From a bacterium HR30 (lineage in GTDB: Bacteria > Desulfobacterota > Binatia > HRBIN30), in the NCBI GenBank assembly GCA_002898795.1, contig BEIG01000009.1, forward strand, positions 1 to 51,035: a stretch of DNA of 51,035 bases. The letters are read 5' to 3'. The position numbers and the translations under genes are program-made. This document shows positions 20,697 through 28,676 of the stretch, piece by piece (position 1 is the stretch's first letter; every line of letters begins with the position of its first letter). A model generated the notes under the pieces. That model was not told the origin of the DNA and ran no database searches. It saw only the letters and a list, made by a program, of their open reading frames with translations.

Positions 20697-21841
20697 ACCA
20701 GTGCTTCGACAAACGACGATAGAAACCGCTTGGCCTGCGCTGAGGGCGAAAATTGCTCGGACAGCAGTTGGGCGGCATTGGTAGCCAAGACTTCCCGCGT
20801 CTCCGGATGACGGTACAGGTCAATCAGCGCTTCGGCCAAGGCTTCGGGATTATTGGGGGGGACAAGGACAATGTTCTCTCCGTGCGTAAAAACCTCGCGC
20901 ACCGCCGGGCTATCCGCAGACACCACCGGCCGCCCCATCGCAGCGCATTGATACACCTTGTTGGGAATAACCATCCTGGCTTTCTGATTGTCGCTGAAGA
21001 TCCCCAAGCACACGTCGTGCTGCGCGATCAGTTGGGGAATCGTTCCGTAGTCTACCCAACCCAGCAGGGTAACGTTGTTCAGCGAAGCTGCATCGAGCTG
21101 CTTCTTCATTTCCGTCCATTGCCAGCCATTGCCGCACAACGTGAAGCGGATGTTGTGCTCTCCTTGTAACCGCTTTGCTGCCGTGAGGATGACCGGCACT
21201 CCATGGAGTGGAAGAAAGGAGCCGTAAAACAAAACGTGCATAGTTTCACTACGAGATCTCGGGGGGGCATATCGGAACAGACTGGTGTCAGCGCCAAGGT
21301 GGAACACGCGGATTTTTTGCGGCGGCACGTTCAACCGGCTCCGCAGATACTCAGCATGGGCGTGTGTGTCGATCACGACGCGATCGGCCAAGTTCAGGCT
21401 TTGGCGATCGAGCCAGGCCAGGAATCGCCTGATAGGAGGGAAATGGCGCGCCACCATCCGATCCTCGATCGTCTCCAACACCGTAACGAGGGGGGCGAAC
21501 ACGAGGCGCCGACCGCGGGTGTAGCCCAAGTGACTCGCCCACAGCACGTCGAGCTGGCCACGAAACCCAGCCACCAAAATTTGCGCAGGACACCTTCGCA
21601 GAAGTGGCCAAAGCCGCGAGGCCGAACGCACATAACGTGCGATGTAAGTGACAACGGCTGCGGGGCGAATGAGCTCGCGGGAAACCAACGGGGTTTCCCG
21701 AAAACTGTCATGACAATGGTGAACCACCAAGCCAGCAGCGTGCGCGGCCTGTACCAAGATGCGGCTTACCGTGTACGAGGCAGGGTACGTACCGAAAAAG
21801 CACACTTGGACGTTGCGCTTTTCCGTCCGGCTTTCCCTCAA
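20693..21841 (-). CDS. Family 4-type (GT-B) glycosyltransferase
   Basis: A 382-residue GT-B enzyme. VCFFGTYPASYTVSRIL starts the acceptor domain; VRVFHLGADTSLF-like text near 185, VLFYGSFLPLHGVPVIL, and PNKVYQCAAMGRPVVSADSPAVREVF form the donor site. The start is a TTG that overlaps the upstream stop as TTGA and is preceded by GGGGGAG at suitable spacing. No ATG is available in the N-terminal part of the frame, so TTG is the best choice. Substrate unknown. Confidence 0.87.
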   Translation of the reverse strand: MRESRTEKRNVQVCFFGTYPASYTVSRILVQAAHAAGLVVHHCHDSFRETPLVSRELIRPAAVVTYIARYVRSASRLWPLLRRCPAQILVAGFRGQLDVLWASHLGYTRGRRLVFAPLVTVLETIEDRMVARHFPPIRRFLAWLDRQSLNLADRVVIDTHAHAEYLRSRLNVPPQKIRVFHLGADTSLFRYAPPRSRSETMHVLFYGSFLPLHGVPVILTAAKRLQGEHNIRFTLCGNGWQWTEMKKQLDAASLNNVTLLGWVDYGTIPQLIAQHDVCLGIFSDNQKARMVIPNKVYQCAAMGRPVVSADSPAVREVFTHGENIVLVPPNNPEALAEALIDLYRHPETREVLATNAAQLLSEQFSPSAQAKRFLSSFVEALV

Positions 21842-22854
21842 CTTCCGCTCCCCCGACGGCGCTGCGCCTCAGAGTATTTGCGGTCAACTTCTTCGATACG
21901 AGGCAACCGTTCACCCAATTCTAAGCAGCGCAAACGAAACAGGATATCCTCGATCAAGTTACGGTTCCCTGCGATCAGGTCGGCCACCAAGCCGATCAGC
22001 ACGGTCTGAAAGCCGATGATAATCAAGAGTACCGTGAGCAGAAGCGATTGGATGTGTCCGCCGCCGGTGCCCGTGAAATAGTAGTACAAGAAGCGAACAC
22101 CAGGAATAAAGCCTGCCAGGATCAGCAGCCCTCCCAAGTAAGAAAAAACTTTTAGCGGCTCGTACAGCGCGTAGATTCGTACGATCGTGGATGCGGATCG
22201 CTTCACGTACTCCCATAAGGAATGGAAGAGCTTCGACTCGCGGGTAGGATAGCTACGAACAGGAACATGGGTAATGGGAAGGCGCTTTTTCCCGGCCTGG
22301 ATGATCGTCTCGATGGTGTAGGTAAAGTCAGAAATTACGTTCAGCCGAAGCGCGGCCTCGCGGCTAAATGCGCGAAAGCCACTGGTCGTGTCGGGAATGC
22401 TAGTACCGGAGAGGGTGCGAACGACCCAACTTCCATAGCGCTGCAACAGCCGCTTACCGCGGGAGAAATGCCGCAGGGTAGACGGGTCGCGATCCCCGAC
22501 CACCATATCCGCCTGGCCTTCGAGGATCGGCCGAATGAGCGCCGGGATATCGGCACCGTCGTACTGGCGATCTCCATCGGTATTCACGATGATATCGGCG
22601 CCAAGCCGCAAACAGGCATCTAACCCGGCCCGAAAGGCCCGAGCCAACCCCCGATTGTTGGGAAAGCGCAAGATGTAGTCTGCGCCTTCCTGGCGAGCAA
22701 TTTCTGCTGTTCGGTCGTGCGAGCCGTCGTCGATCACCAAAACTTCCACGATGTCGACTCCGGGTATAGAACGGGGCAATGACTTTAGCGTGTCCGCCAG
22801 GCATTCTTCCTCGTTTAGGCAAGGGATCTGAATGATGAGCTTCCGTGGTGTCAT
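21838..22854 (-). CDS. Polyprenyl-phosphate-type GT2 glycosyltransferase with C-terminal membrane helices
   Basis: A 338-residue protein. LIIQIPCLNEEECLADTL and VLVIDDGSHDRTAEIAR start a DPM1-like GT2 domain; IIVNTDGDRQYDG holds the DxD site; DTTSGFRAFSREAALRL is the acceptor-site block of this subgroup. Two hydrophobic segments follow at about 240-260 and 275-300. It probably transfers a sugar to a lipid-phosphate carrier or starts a glycan chain. It is the first gene of the nine-gene operon, 80 bases from the divergent membrane-protein gene. Confidence 0.9.
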   Translation of the reverse strand: MTPRKLIIQIPCLNEEECLADTLKSLPRSIPGVDIVEVLVIDDGSHDRTAEIARQEGADYILRFPNNRGLARAFRAGLDACLRLGADIIVNTDGDRQYDGADIPALIRPILEGQADMVVGDRDPSTLRHFSRGKRLLQRYGSWVVRTLSGTSIPDTTSGFRAFSREAALRLNVISDFTYTIETIIQAGKKRLPITHVPVRSYPTRESKLFHSLWEYVKRSASTIVRIYALYEPLKVFSYLGGLLILAGFIPGVRFLYYYFTGTGGGHIQSLLLTVLLIIIGFQTVLIGLVADLIAGNRNLIEDILFRLRCLELGERLPRIEEVDRKYSEAQRRRGSGS

Positions 22855-22934: not shown

Positions 22935-24941
22935 ATGTGGGAAAACCTTGGGGTCGTGATCCGCGTGATGCTCTTCGGTGCCTTGAGTTTTTACCTGCCA
23001 GGTCGTGCCTGGTCCGCTTGGATTTTTGCCGCCCGGAAGCCGACCGCGTTTTTCGTGCCGCCCTTGCTTCTGGAACTAGCGGTCAGCGTGGTCACGGCCA
23101 CTTTGGTGGGTTTCGTCTTATTGGAAGCAAGTGTGTGGTCGCCTCTCACCTTTGCGGCCGTAACGAGTTCGGTCGCTGCTCTCGGTTGGTGGGCCTCACG
23201 GGATAAAGCCAAGCCAGTATATGGGAGGGAGGATCTGCTGCTCCTTTTCGTCGGAGCTGCAGCGGCGTGGTGGCTCCTTCCTCCTTTTGAAGCTCGTTTT
23301 GCCTCAGGAGATGCCACTGGCTACTTGGCCGCTGGGATTCACGCGGCACGGGTGGGCAGTTTCGAGGTGAGCGACCCCACTGTGGGATTGATGGATATCG
23401 ATCTGCGGCGAATTCTGTTCCCCAGTGTTGCAATGGATCGCGGCTCGCCACCCTACTTACGACTGGAGGGTGGCTACGTTTTACAGTCGCTTGACGGTGC
23501 GCAAGTTTTGCCGGCGTTCCATCATGGTATCGTTCCCTGGGTTGCTCTGACTGTCACGCTTGTAGGTTCGAGCGCCGCTGAGTGGGTCTTTGGCGTTTTC
23601 GGGGTGCTTGCACTTGTCGCCGTGTACGGCGTAGCGCGCTCCCTTCAATTATCACCACCTTCTTCCCTGGCGGTCGTGACTCTGGCGGCAGTACAGCCTG
23701 TGTTGTTCTTTTACTGCCGCTTTCCCATGCCTGAAGTGACTGCAGCGTTTTTCCTGTGGTGTGGCGTTGCTCTTGCGTTGGGCGCAGGACCGAGCACCGT
23801 CCAAGCAGTTCTCGCTGGCCTTGCACTCGGATGTGCGGCGCTGATCCGGCTGGAAAATGCATTTTTGGTCTGCACGGGGCTTACCCTAGCTGCCATCCTT
23901 TCACCGCCTGGAACTCGGCTCGCTTGGGCTTTCTTTCCGGCGTTTCTTTTAAGCGGCCACGCCCTACTTCATGCTTACTTTTGGCGCACGCATTATTGGG
24001 GAAATCTCATCAATTTCCTTGCGAGCCAAGCAACCACGACCCGATCTCTTGTTCTCTTTGGGCTAGCGGCTGGCCTGGTCGCTTACACCGTGTGGAGCAA
24101 CCGAGGTGGTCGTAAACTTACCACGGTTCGGGCCCAGGTACTCGCCGTGGCGGTTGCCGTCGCATTCGCCGCCGCGGTACAGCTCTGGGCAAGGAACACC
24201 GCAGAGTGGAGTTTGTTGTGGGATTGGTCTGGCGGCTTACTCCTCATGTTCGGGCTTGCCGGGCTTTTCGTAGCCGCTGCTGCCGCTTCGTCCCTGGCTC
24301 AGACTCTCGTGATTTGCCTCGTTGTCCTATCGGGTCTTGTTTTCTTCCTCGGTCCGCAGGCGACCCCGGCAGATTTGTGGGTGCTGCGCCGGGCGACAAC
24401 GGTGCTGATCCCTGGCCTCTGTTTAACGCTCGTTTGGGGGGCTACGGAACTTTGTCGTCCCTTACCACGGAAGCTGGGAACCTTGTGTCTGTCGGCCACA
24501 TTGTTGCTAGCGCTGTTCGCGCCAGTGCCGAGGTTACTCACCGTGATCAACCAAGAATACTACACCGGTGGGGCCATCCATTCTCAGATGCTCGCAACCT
24601 CCCTAGATCGCCCCGCAGCTCTACTGGTTCACGGATCCCTAGCGCCGCTGAGTATCGCCCCTCTGTTGTGGGCAACCAGCGAGGCGCCGGTCTACTACGT
24701 CACGAACCCACAAGACTGGCTTGTCGCTGACCTCCTGCGTGCGTTGGCTCGGGTAGGCCGTCCGATTTATTTTCTGCTCCCGGGGGATTTACCGCCCTAT
24801 AACCCGCCAGCTAACGGCGGCTGGCGACCACATCTGCGGTATCGGTTTGCCTGGTCCAGTCCGTTTCAAAATCGCCCCTTGGCTGCGCCAACCTGGAAGG
24901 AGATCGACCTCAGCATCTATCGCTGGCAAGCCTCGCCATGA
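22935..24941 (+). CDS. Large multipass membrane protein, GT-C-like
   Basis: A 668-residue protein with at least ten hydrophobic helices up to about residue 545, then a soluble C-terminal part. FASGDATGYLAAGIHAARVGSFE near 125 resembles the first extracytoplasmic loop of GT-C glycosyltransferases of the GT39/ArnT type, where an acidic residue is catalytic. LIRLENAFLV near 300 also fits. No well-known family signature is complete, so the call stays general. It is divergent from the glycosyltransferase operon and may transfer a finished sugar from a lipid carrier (inference). Weak ribosome-binding site (GGAGCGG). Confidence 0.65.
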   Translation: MWENLGVVIRVMLFGALSFYLPGRAWSAWIFAARKPTAFFVPPLLLELAVSVVTATLVGFVLLEASVWSPLTFAAVTSSVAALGWWASRDKAKPVYGREDLLLLFVGAAAAWWLLPPFEARFASGDATGYLAAGIHAARVGSFEVSDPTVGLMDIDLRRILFPSVAMDRGSPPYLRLEGGYVLQSLDGAQVLPAFHHGIVPWVALTVTLVGSSAAEWVFGVFGVLALVAVYGVARSLQLSPPSSLAVVTLAAVQPVLFFYCRFPMPEVTAAFFLWCGVALALGAGPSTVQAVLAGLALGCAALIRLENAFLVCTGLTLAAILSPPGTRLAWAFFPAFLLSGHALLHAYFWRTHYWGNLINFLASQATTTRSLVLFGLAAGLVAYTVWSNRGGRKLTTVRAQVLAVAVAVAFAAAVQLWARNTAEWSLLWDWSGGLLLMFGLAGLFVAAAAASSLAQTLVICLVVLSGLVFFLGPQATPADLWVLRRATTVLIPGLCLTLVWGATELCRPLPRKLGTLCLSATLLLALFAPVPRLLTVINQEYYTGGAIHSQMLATSLDRPAALLVHGSLAPLSIAPLLWATSEAPVYYVTNPQDWLVADLLRALARVGRPIYFLLPGDLPPYNPPANGGWRPHLRYRFAWSSPFQNRPLAAPTWKEIDLSIYRWQASP

Positions 24942-25017: not shown

Positions 25018-25054
25018 GCGAAGGGCGTCAGGAATAGCTCCTGACGCCCTTCGC
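25018..25054 (-). terminator. Rho-independent terminator after the three-paralog unit
   Basis: A 16-bp perfect stem (GCGAAGGGCGTCAGGA at 25018-25033, its complement at 25039-25054) with loop ATAGC. Read on the minus strand it is followed by GTTTTTG, a T tract, and it lies 37 bases beyond the stop of the last paralog. It may also stop readthrough from the membrane-protein gene on the plus strand, though there is no T tract in that direction. Confidence 0.88.
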
Positions 25055-25091
25055 TCGTCCAAACTACCGAGATTAGACCCAGCTAACTCGG

Positions 25092-25733
25092 CTAGTTCAA
25101 AATACCCGGTCGCGCCACGACGTTGCCATCGTCACAGTTGACGACCTCTGCATCGAGGATCTCGACGTTCTGTTTGGCCAAACCTGTAGGCTGGGAGTTC
25201 TGGCTCAAACACTGGTCGAGCAAAATGGAACCCAAAACGACGCCACGTGGATTTGCCACAAAGCAGTTCGTTGGACCGACAGGACAATCCACGGTTACAT
25301 CCTGGAATGTTACCAACTGGTTGCTCTTAGTTGGATTTTTCGTGCCGACACCCGAACGTGTGGTGCGCAGCGTCAGCCGCACCTTCACCCGCTGGCCATT
25401 CTGCATGCCGAACGCGAGCAACTTCACCTTACCCTGCCCTCCAGTGCCCGGGAAGCGACGCACATCCAAACGGCCAAACGTCATGGTCGCTCCTGCTGGG
25501 TTCGATCCCCCCGGTGGTGGCAACGGGTCAGATTGGGTCGCGAAGCATCCCCCGCTGGGCAAATTCGTTGGTGAAACCACCGTTAGGCCACTCGGCGTAC
25601 AACTGTCAAAGGCACGGGCAAGCCACGTTGAGTAGCGGATTGCCTTGGTCGGAAATCCTGTCACCTGTGCGTAAGCTACGCCGGACCCTAACACCACTGA
25701 GGCCATCGCAGACGCTAGCCAAAACCTTTTCAT
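25092..25733 (-). CDS. Secreted protein of an unrecognised family, paralog 3 of 3
   Basis: A 213-residue protein. Residues 1-22 are a Sec signal peptide ending VAYA before QVTGFP. The mature part shares an ordered set of blocks with the next two genes: TWLARAFDSCTPSGLTVVSP, GGC, a strand with KVKLLAFG, GVGTKNPTKS, VTFQDVTVDC, CL, NVEILDAEVVN, and the terminal ARPGILN. This copy has a Pro/Gly-rich insert around residue 75 and extra cysteines. No enzyme motif, lipobox or membrane helix is present. I do not recognise the family; a beta-sandwich fold is a guess from alternating hydrophobic strands. The ATG at 25733 follows GGAGGG; a GTG two codons earlier is possible. Confidence 0.85.
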   Translation of the reverse strand: MKRFWLASAMASVVLGSGVAYAQVTGFPTKAIRYSTWLARAFDSCTPSGLTVVSPTNLPSGGCFATQSDPLPPPGGSNPAGATMTFGRLDVRRFPGTGGQGKVKLLAFGMQNGQRVKVRLTLRTTRSGVGTKNPTKSNQLVTFQDVTVDCPVGPTNCFVANPRGVVLGSILLDQCLSQNSQPTGLAKQNVEILDAEVVNCDDGNVVARPGILN

Positions 25734-25789
25734 TCTCACCCTCCCTCGCGCTCTATATATCTCAATTCACCTTCACGTTTCGTTCACCA

Positions 25790-26422
25790 CTAACGAAGCA
25801 CACCCGCTCGGGCGAATTCCTTACCCGTTGCCACATTGATCAAGCTTGCCCCGAGCACTTCAATATTGTTCGTACCTGCACCTCCACCTAAATTCGGGTA
25901 TGGCTGCAGGCAAGAATTCAAATCGGTTGCACCCACAATCGCGCCATTCGGCCGGACAACAAACGCATTCGGCGACGCAGGGCAATCGACCGTGACATCC
26001 GCAAACGTCACTGTAGTACTAGACTTGGTGGGATTTTTCGTACTTACGCCCTGCCGAGTCACTCGCAGGTTCAACCGCACTCGTACGCTCTCGCCGAACG
26101 TTAATCCTCTGGCGTAAAGCCGGATCTTACCAGACTTCGCGACACGCAACCGCGCGAAATTGTATGGCAATACGCTGTCGGTAACCGAATTGGAGCTAAG
26201 GCACCCGGTATTGGGGACGTTCGTTGGGGAAACAACGGTAAGCCCCGATGGCGTGCAACTGTCGTATGCCCGAGCCATCCACGTATCGAACGCCGGAGCT
26301 TTCTTCGGGTAGCTCGGTAAGGTTTGTGCACCCACTGTGCTGGCCAGGACCCCGACGAAGCTCACCATCACCAATGGTACAACCAACCGCAAAGCACTTT
26401 GGATTTTCACCGACCGGATCAT
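25790..26422 (-). CDS. Secreted protein of an unrecognised family, paralog 2 of 3
   Basis: A 210-residue protein with a signal peptide of about 33 residues ending VGAQ before TLPSYP. It carries the same blocks: TWMARAYDSCTPSGLTVVSP, TGC, RLYARG, GVSTKNPTKS, VTFADVTVDC, SCL, NIEVLGASLIN and ARAGVLR. The start at 26422 has GGAGG 8 bases upstream; the frame is open 11 codons further but would overlap the previous gene. It lies 29 bases after paralog 1 and 56 bases before paralog 3, so all three should be on one transcript. Function unknown. Confidence 0.85.
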   Translation of the reverse strand: MIRSVKIQSALRLVVPLVMVSFVGVLASTVGAQTLPSYPKKAPAFDTWMARAYDSCTPSGLTVVSPTNVPNTGCLSSNSVTDSVLPYNFARLRVAKSGKIRLYARGLTFGESVRVRLNLRVTRQGVSTKNPTKSSTTVTFADVTVDCPASPNAFVVRPNGAIVGATDLNSCLQPYPNLGGGAGTNNIEVLGASLINVATGKEFARAGVLR

Positions 26423-26451
26423 GGTTGCCGCCTCCCTCAGTTTTCTCTGCC

Positions 26452-27054
26452 TCATCGGAGCACCCCAGGACGGGCAAACACTTTGTTCGAGTTGTCTACG
26501 TTGACCAAGGCAACCTCTTCGATCTCAATGTTTCCGGTGGCCAACCCAGGGTAAGAACTCAGACAGTCTGCCAGATCAATTGAGGCGCCAAGAGCACCAG
26601 TCGGGTAGACAATCACAAAGCCAAATGGAGGAGGGCCACAGACCACGGTTTGGTCTGCAAACGTCACCCGCGCATTGCTCTTCGTGGGATTCTTCGTGTT
26701 GACTCCGGTCTTAGTGACGCGAACGGTTAACTGCACTTTAACTCGCCCGCCCGGGGTCATGCCGCGGCCAAAGAGTTTAATTTTCCCGCTGCCTTTCGAA
26801 ATGCGAACCTTTCCGAAATCCATGGTCATTTGGTTGTCCACCCCAGAGGCGGTACTCAAACAACCTTGCTGCGGCAATCCCGGGCTTACCACCGAGAGGC
26901 CACCCGGGGTACACTGATCGAATGCCCGCACTAACCACGCAGAAAACGAGCGCGCAAGTTGTGGAAACTGGGCCGTTTGCGCGCGGGTCGTCCCTGCGGC
27001 CAGCAGCAAGCTAAGCGCAGCTCCTGCCAGAGCCACTCCTCGACGTACTGTCAT
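26452..27054 (-). CDS. Secreted protein of an unrecognised family, paralog 1 of 3
   Basis: A 200-residue protein, first in its transcript. Residues 1-25 are a signal peptide ending TTRAQ. The mature part has AWLVRAFDQCTPGGLSVVSP, QGC, KIKLFGRG, GVNTKNPTKS, VTFADQTVVC, DCL, NIEIEEVALVN and ARPGVLR. Four cysteines are shared by all three copies, two near the N-terminus and two in the C-terminal half, which would allow disulfides in the periplasm or outside. AGGAGG lies 9 bases before the ATG. A sigma70-like promoter is at 27133-27162. Confidence 0.85.
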   Translation of the reverse strand: MTVRRGVALAGAALSLLLAAGTTRAQTAQFPQLARSFSAWLVRAFDQCTPGGLSVVSPGLPQQGCLSTASGVDNQMTMDFGKVRISKGSGKIKLFGRGMTPGGRVKVQLTVRVTKTGVNTKNPTKSNARVTFADQTVVCGPPPFGFVIVYPTGALGASIDLADCLSSYPGLATGNIEIEEVALVNVDNSNKVFARPGVLR

Positions 27055-27132
27055 GCGCTCCCTCCTGTCGTCCTTTTAACTCCCACCGTTTCACCGGCTG
27101 CTCTTGCTCCCTCTCCCTATCGAGCGGTGTCC

Positions 27133-27162
27133 ACTATTCCAACAGAGTTGCTCCTTTGTCAA
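27133..27162 (-). promoter_or_regulatory. Sigma70-like promoter of the three-paralog unit
   Basis: On the minus strand a perfect TTGACA (27162-27157) is followed after 18 bases by AATAGT (27138-27133), 4 of 6 matches to the -10 consensus. The first paralog starts about 79 bases downstream, leaving a leader of roughly 70 bases. Confidence 0.55.
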
Positions 27163-27416
27163 GAACAAACCCACGGGTAAAACATCCCGCACCCTTGAGC
27201 CTGCCGGAGGACTTCCGGACCCGAAAGAAGGCATGAATGGGGCTTCGAATAGAAGATCCACACCGTTGCTTCATATCCCGCTCGCGCCAAACACGGCGTT
27301 ACAGCATGTAGCATTCTCACGCCCAGATCAGCGCTCCCAAGCCCTTTTTCGCCTCCGCTGGTGTGGCACTCGTGGCGGCGACGACTTTTCCGCGGCTCTC
27401 GTACCCCTATTGCGGG

Positions 27417-27430
27417 CAGGCCAGGGTGCG
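27417..27430 (+). repeat. 14-bp direct repeat, copy 1
   Basis: CAGGCCAGGGTGCG, identical to 28460-28473. The two copies lie 1,043 bases apart within the gene-free stretch. It could be chance or the remains of a duplication. Confidence 0.4.
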
Positions 27431-28459
27431 ACGACTTCGAGTACTTCGAGGTTTCCCGACTTTTGCTCGCATTTTGTCGTCTCGCTATCGCGCGTGCTTC
27501 GCGCCCGGTGAGCGCCGGACACCGCGCTCAGCACTGTAAGAGCCAAGGGTTCTCAACCACCCGTTGGTTTTTGGTACCCCCGCGCGCGTTATCCCTGCCG
27601 CTCAATTCTGTCTTTCCGCGTCGCTCTCGCGAGGTCTGCGCCTACTCCATTTGTGGAAAAAGCTGGGACTACCACCAGGCAAATCGTGTCCCCAAAACTC
27701 GAGCAAGGTTTCGGGCGACCCAGCGTACTGGCTTTCGCAAGCTCAGCGGACAGAAGGTCGCACAGGTTACGATCCCCGTTTTCTTTTTCTTTCACAAACC
27801 CGCCTGATTTCCGAACTTGGCAGCAATCACATCGTCGCCACAGTTGCCACGTACCCCCTCATGAACGCCTGAGCGCCCTCTGCTGTCGGCCGTGCACGTA
27901 GTGGGCTCCAGTCAAAGAGCAGCAAGTTTCGTGAAACACGCGGCCTTTGGGCGTGTAGCTCTCTTGTCGCACTCGAGGGACTTTCCTCGGTCCACGATGA
28001 CTTGGCGATAGCACTCCCTCTATTGACGGCATTTGCTTTCTGGATTCGCGGTTCATGGTTCTTTCCCGGCGTCTTCTGGAGCCTTTCCTTCTGGCAGAAG
28101 AAGTACTCCGGTATTCTTCTACCGGCCTTCGCCGTATGTTGGCTGCGGCGGTGGCCCGACCTGAGGCAGCTCACGTCTGCTGCTCGGCGTTGGGGGAAGC
28201 GTTCTGCGTTTCCGCGTTGACGCTACTATCGTGGAGTGGGGCCGCCCCGTCGATTCTCGGCCGACCCTTTAAGGTCAAAGTCCGCATTGCCCCGCTTCCC
28301 ACTGGGTTTCCGCCGCTCCTCCGCCAATCTCCTCGCTGTTCTTCAGAGGGTAGCTGGTTCGACCCACGGCCGCCGCCCGCACTTTTCGAGGCCGTTCGTT
28401 ACATGTTTGCCCCCGGCCGCGGCGGGCTTCTGCCCTTTGCGTCGTTAAAATTTTCCATA

Positions 28460-28473
28460 CAGGCCAGGGTGCG
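28460..28473 (+). repeat. 14-bp direct repeat, copy 2
   Basis: Second copy of CAGGCCAGGGTGCG. The bases that follow differ between copies (acgact versus tgatgc), so the match does not extend. Confidence 0.4.
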
Positions 28474-28676
28474 TGATGCCAGATTGCTTCTTTGCTCCCC
28501 TGATTTTTCGCGGGTTTCTCACGACCGTGTTGTCGCCCTGGCTGGTACCTTTTATTTTCCTGCTCCCGTGGGCTACTAGCCGGCCACTAGTTGCTTATTT
28601 TGGGTCGTCGCACCGAATGGCACGGCCGACGCGTTGGAGCGCGGAGCCAGATAGAGCCCGTGCAGACAGAACCTTC

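Follow-up and report, generated by a model that had tools for sequence, protein, structure and literature searches.

A 51,035-nt stretch of the genome of bacterium HR30 (contig BEIG01000009.1; hereafter, the window) carries three adjacent genes for small exported proteins, and the question raised by this locus is what these proteins do and with which partner. The initial annotation presented them as a self-contained unit of secreted paralogs, placed between unrelated operons and derived from a family that it could not identify, possibly an undescribed extracellular system. Here, the three proteins are designated X-A, X-B, and X-C, their family X, and the membrane protein encoded beside them Y.

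The three exported paralogs and their transcription unit

All three genes are encoded on the minus strand. X-A (26452..27054) encodes 200 aa, with a signal peptide at about residues 1–25 and four cysteines; X-B (25790..26422) encodes 210 aa from the likely ATG, in a frame open to 26455; X-C (25092..25733) encodes 213 aa from the likely ATG, with a GTG alternative at 25739, and contains six cysteines. As read from the sequence, each protein starts with a signal peptide that lacks a lipobox and has an A-x-A-like site at its end. The mature parts were 49–51% identical in pairwise comparisons, and their alignment scores of 366–401 greatly exceeded those of shuffled sequences (about 34, maximum 61). 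The trio was found in the same order in two sister species, both same-genus relatives (G001 and G002); CALAMI010000036.1 (Candidatus Binatia bacterium) is an X-bearing contig of a same-genus relative. The description of three tandem signal-peptide paralogs of 200–213 aa was thus borne out by sizes, shuffle-tested homology, and conservation of the arrangement. The shared sequence blocks listed in the initial annotation were all present in the three proteins, as were four common cysteines (C48, C65, C139, and C164 in X-A numbering). The conserved cysteines probably form disulfides.

The X-A ortholog in G001 was 90% identical. Comparison of the X orthologs between sister species gave pN of 0.05–0.12 and pS of 0.60–0.83; all three are therefore constrained coding genes, which shows that X-A, X-B, and X-C are real genes under purifying selection.

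The proposal of a separate TTGACA promoter was sustained in part. The motif TTGACA-18-AATAGT (27133..27162, minus strand) is, taken alone, at chance level, with one occurrence found against 1.0 expected. In the upstream alignment of three species, TTGAC and a block preceding the −10 element were kept and the surroundings had diverged. The intrinsic terminator of the trio (25018..25054, minus strand) proved to be a 17-pair stem, including the 16 perfect base pairs noted initially, followed by a T-run; G001 and G002 have hairpins of different sequence at the same site. Between the trio and the RNase III gene, positions 27385-28541 (plus strand) hold what remains, broken over several frames, of a multi-TM protein; sister species have it intact (L024:6296-7741, 481 aa; L080:7931-9439, 502 aa). 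This region is a pseudogene, or else it contains assembly errors.

Distribution of the X family and its invariant residues

No further copies of X were found in the 3.73-Mb assembly of the same organism. The pattern scan of genome contigs, in which the patterns reach close relatives only, detected X in the sister species only, and the search of viral contigs for X relatives gave none. With the wide profile A7, the family was detected in 45 of 148 Binatia genomes, with one to nine matches in each, and among 395 sampled genomes of the phylum it was confined to Binatia. A narrower profile gave one marginal match of 19 bits outside the class.

Remote X members were among the sequences in the profiles applied to distant genomes, so the E-values from these profiles are partly circular. 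In an independent test, an alignment of ten window-type X proteins, compared profile to profile with an alignment of the Y-linked X proteins of families f7, f10, f13, f15, and f16, gave P of 1.6e-5 in local mode (probability 79%) and 3.2e-7 in global mode (88%), against a probability of 0.6% for the reversed control, and adjacency to Y, which played no part in building the profiles, provides independent support. The distant proteins of these families are probably homologous to the X proteins of the window. The result for the close relatives is independent of that assignment.

Tandem expansion of X recurs: independent arrays were seen at G105:C38:78920-81418 (three copies, with Y on the same contig) and G050:C2:10530-12056 (two copies). 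Other architectures were also noted. Two ORFs of 389-396 aa in G009 (L042 on C23 and L014 on C52) resemble two X domains in one chain, and a 405-aa ORF (L034, G007:C2:46257-46784) has an X domain at its C-terminus and an unrelated N-terminal part. A Y-adjacent X gene of the same genome (L090, G007:C1:347499-348156) is split across two frames by a frameshift or sequencing error.

The initial annotation had singled out the heptapeptide TKNPTKS, identical in the three paralogs (26677..26697 in X-A, 26021-26041 in X-B, and 25323-25343 in X-C, minus strand), as a target of selection. This idea was not supported by the comparison with relatives. In the sister species G002 the A protein has TKNPSKT at the corresponding positions and the C protein TKNPSGS, and outside the genus TKNPTKS is absent, the loop being different or missing. 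The residues invariant over the whole family are others, namely C48, C65, R112, G153, and G197; A44 and D134 come close to invariance, and C139 and C164 reach it among the closer relatives only. Judged from these alignments, TKNPTKS is a loop specific to the clade and not the functional signature of the X family. Recent gene conversion as the source of its identity was ruled out, since the paralogs write the motif with different synonymous codons.

Searches of Pfam, NCBIfam, and PDB sequences, with single X proteins as well as with alignments, returned nothing above noise and no characterised family. The claim of a family that could not be placed was upheld to this extent: X is exported, has shared cysteines and no match in these three collections, and is part of a system not described so far.

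The membrane enzyme next to the trio

The picture of an isolated unit was not confirmed. Tail-to-tail with X-C, with the T-run of the terminator serving the X side, lies the gene for Y (22935..24941, plus strand), a polytopic membrane protein of 668 aa, and this neighbour turned out to be a conserved partner of X throughout the class. A profile search yielded 48 Y matches in 43 of the 148 Binatia genomes. At 30 of these 48 loci X was the immediate neighbour within 3 kb, with gaps of 26–827 bp; if as many X genes were placed at random, 0.18 such cases would be expected. Only two arrangements were found, convergent (17 loci) and co-directional, with Y after X on the same strand (13 loci). A Y ortholog adjoins every close X locus with enough flanking sequence (G000, G001, G002, G003 at two places, G007, G008, G010, G027, and G054). 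Unpaired Y genes belong to family f9, lie at contig edges (G004 and G046), or are a second copy (G107). The survey of relatives for copy number and neighbours thus revealed both the spread of X and the recurrence of Y beside it.

Both genes were present in 38 of the 148 genomes, X only in seven, Y only in five, and neither in 98. Because relatedness is not taken into account in these figures, adjacency is the stronger evidence of the two. G009 is one of the genomes with X only: nine X matches were counted there, and Y was not detected.

Within the order, synteny extends over most of the block CimA-IscS-MnmA-MtaB-RNase III-X-Y-DPM-GT1-GT2. At G003:C20, in G027 and G054, and in family f10, the outer neighbours have changed and X and Y are still together; in families f7, f13, f15, and f16, a DPM gene is divergent from X, which is followed by Y. 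The X–Y pair outlives the other neighbours examined, RNase III and DPM among them. The adjacency is probably more than inherited gene order, and a class-wide link between the two genes is well supported.

Y has about eleven hydrophobic segments according to hydropathy, and its first large loop contains D126, Y130, and D147, all invariant across ten Y proteins. The recurrent Pfam match among Y proteins is PMT_2 (PF13231), to which the G021 protein scored 27.7 bits, above the cut-off of 26.1, and four other homologs 17.6–20.9 bits, below it; Y of the window had no Pfam match. Three Y members matched NF047440 (the LA_3751/LA_3752 family of putative glycosyltransferases) with a best E of 5.5e-7; the bit scores, where given, were far below the cut-off, as for Y of the window (11.4 bits against a curated cut-off of 200). 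The literature library searched contained no paper on LA_3751 and none joining Binatota with a glycosyltransferase. Y appears to share with the PMT_2 enzymes of the GT-C type the polytopic architecture and the conserved Asp in the first large loop, but differs from them in its pairing with an exported family lacking database matches. Its best reading, reasonably inferred from these features, is a GT-C glycosyltransferase, and there is good support for a polyprenyl-phosphate sugar as its probable substrate.

On the other side of Y lies a gene of the DPM/ArnC/GtrB type (21838..22854, minus strand), coding for a polyprenyl-phosphate glycosyltransferase with a GT2 domain (PF00535, 7.9e-21) and C-terminal hydrophobic segments. 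It has the layout of polyprenyl-phosphate sugar synthases and is likely the donor-making enzyme. Orthologs 59–93% identical to it adjoin X–Y in several families; in families f10 and f11 no close DPM was seen in the stretches read. Beyond this gene, further glycosyltransferases and a flippase-type Polysacc_synt protein are encoded. DPM1, ArnC, and GtrB are dolichyl- or bactoprenyl-phosphate glycosyltransferases, which in gtrABC modules or protein O-mannosylation are combined with acceptor enzymes of the GT-C type. The window resembles these systems in that the GT2 enzyme likely to make the donor is encoded next to a GT-C-type transferase. We know of no counterpart of the exported X family in either of them. 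None of the databases searched contains the X family, but an exported protein combined with a lipid-linked-sugar transferase is a known type of system.

The role of the exported proteins

X usually adjoins the same membrane enzyme across Binatia, and therefore the pair probably works together on cell-surface sugars. The locus is most likely a Binatia-specific envelope-glycosylation module in which the X proteins serve the GT-C enzyme as acceptors or as accessory subunits. Our tentative preference, held with somewhat less than even confidence, is that X proteins are Binatia-restricted, Sec-exported acceptors or carriers working with the glycosyltransferase Y. The DPM-like enzyme would load a sugar onto polyprenyl phosphate and Y would transfer the polyprenyl-linked sugar on the periplasmic side, to which the signal peptides would bring the X proteins as dedicated acceptors or carriers; the glycosylated proteins may end as envelope or surface glycoproteins. 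The acceptor role is favoured because the presence of several X per Y and the repeated tandem X arrays fit one enzyme with several substrates. That X is the protein acceptor of Y has modest support, falling a little short of an even chance. A fuller version, in which a class-specific protein-glycosylation module joins a dedicated GT-C enzyme to its own exported, disulfide-bonded acceptor family, tandem-expanded for surface glycan display, is possible, with the balance leaning against it.

Several observations speak against the acceptor role. Y of the window is 58% identical to its counterpart in a sister species (L024:10130-12139), whereas X proteins are 82-90% identical and the adjacent DPM-like protein 93%; with X more conserved than Y, a structural or accessory partner fits no worse than a substrate. 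In addition, some genomes have X with no detected Y, the Y genes of family f9 have no adjacent X, and the DPM-less stretches of f10 and f11 and the missing Pfam match of Y in the window also weigh on this side. X could instead be a periplasmic accessory or glycan-binding subunit, itself unglycosylated, that holds the glycan or stabilises Y while envelope polysaccharide is being made. We consider this nearly as likely as the acceptor role, which places it, too, among the tentative readings: the X–Y linkage supports it equally, and the locus sits within a polysaccharide cluster. Up to nine X proteins with one Y per genome, together with the tandem expansions, would nevertheless be unusual for a one-to-one subunit.

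It is improbable that X has a job of its own as a surface or matrix protein and lies next to Y through inherited gene order only. The seven genomes with X and no detected Y and the synteny of part of the block within the order would agree with such independence, but the pair has been kept across different gene orders and outer neighbours, and occurs as two separate pairs in G003.

The fold of X was approached via AlphaFold2 models of X-A and X-B, which are weak (pLDDT 66 and 62, respectively) because only six sequences were used as input. Both low-confidence models are beta-rich, which suggests a beta-rich, probably sandwich-like core. Foldseek with the X-A model returned no match at E ≤ 0.001; its top structural neighbours were Cu,Zn superoxide dismutases (SODs; Z 7.9, rmsd 3.3 over 97 residues), whereas the X-B model preferred other beta-sandwiches (best Z 6.6, best SOD 5.7). 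A degenerate Cu,Zn SOD/CHRD-type domain with a redox or metal function is very improbable despite this weak resemblance of one low-confidence model, since X-A, X-B, and X-C contain no histidine at all, so that the SOD metal site cannot exist, and the likeness was not reproduced by the X-B model. CHRD (PF07452) homology was likewise dropped, as there was no Pfam match and the profile comparison with Binatia CHRD domains gave a probability of about 0.2%.

Binatia are uncultured, globally distributed bacteria known from genomes, and little is known about their surface; glycosyltransferases, secretion, and the outer membrane go unmentioned in the main Binatota genome paper of the library searched (PMC8262859). 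The class-wide linkage of a GT-C enzyme to an exported family that has no name offers a concrete and testable approach to envelope construction in these bacteria. Should X be the acceptor, the pair would constitute a dedicated enzyme–substrate glycosylation system built on a protein family that Pfam, NCBIfam, and the PDB sequences do not contain.
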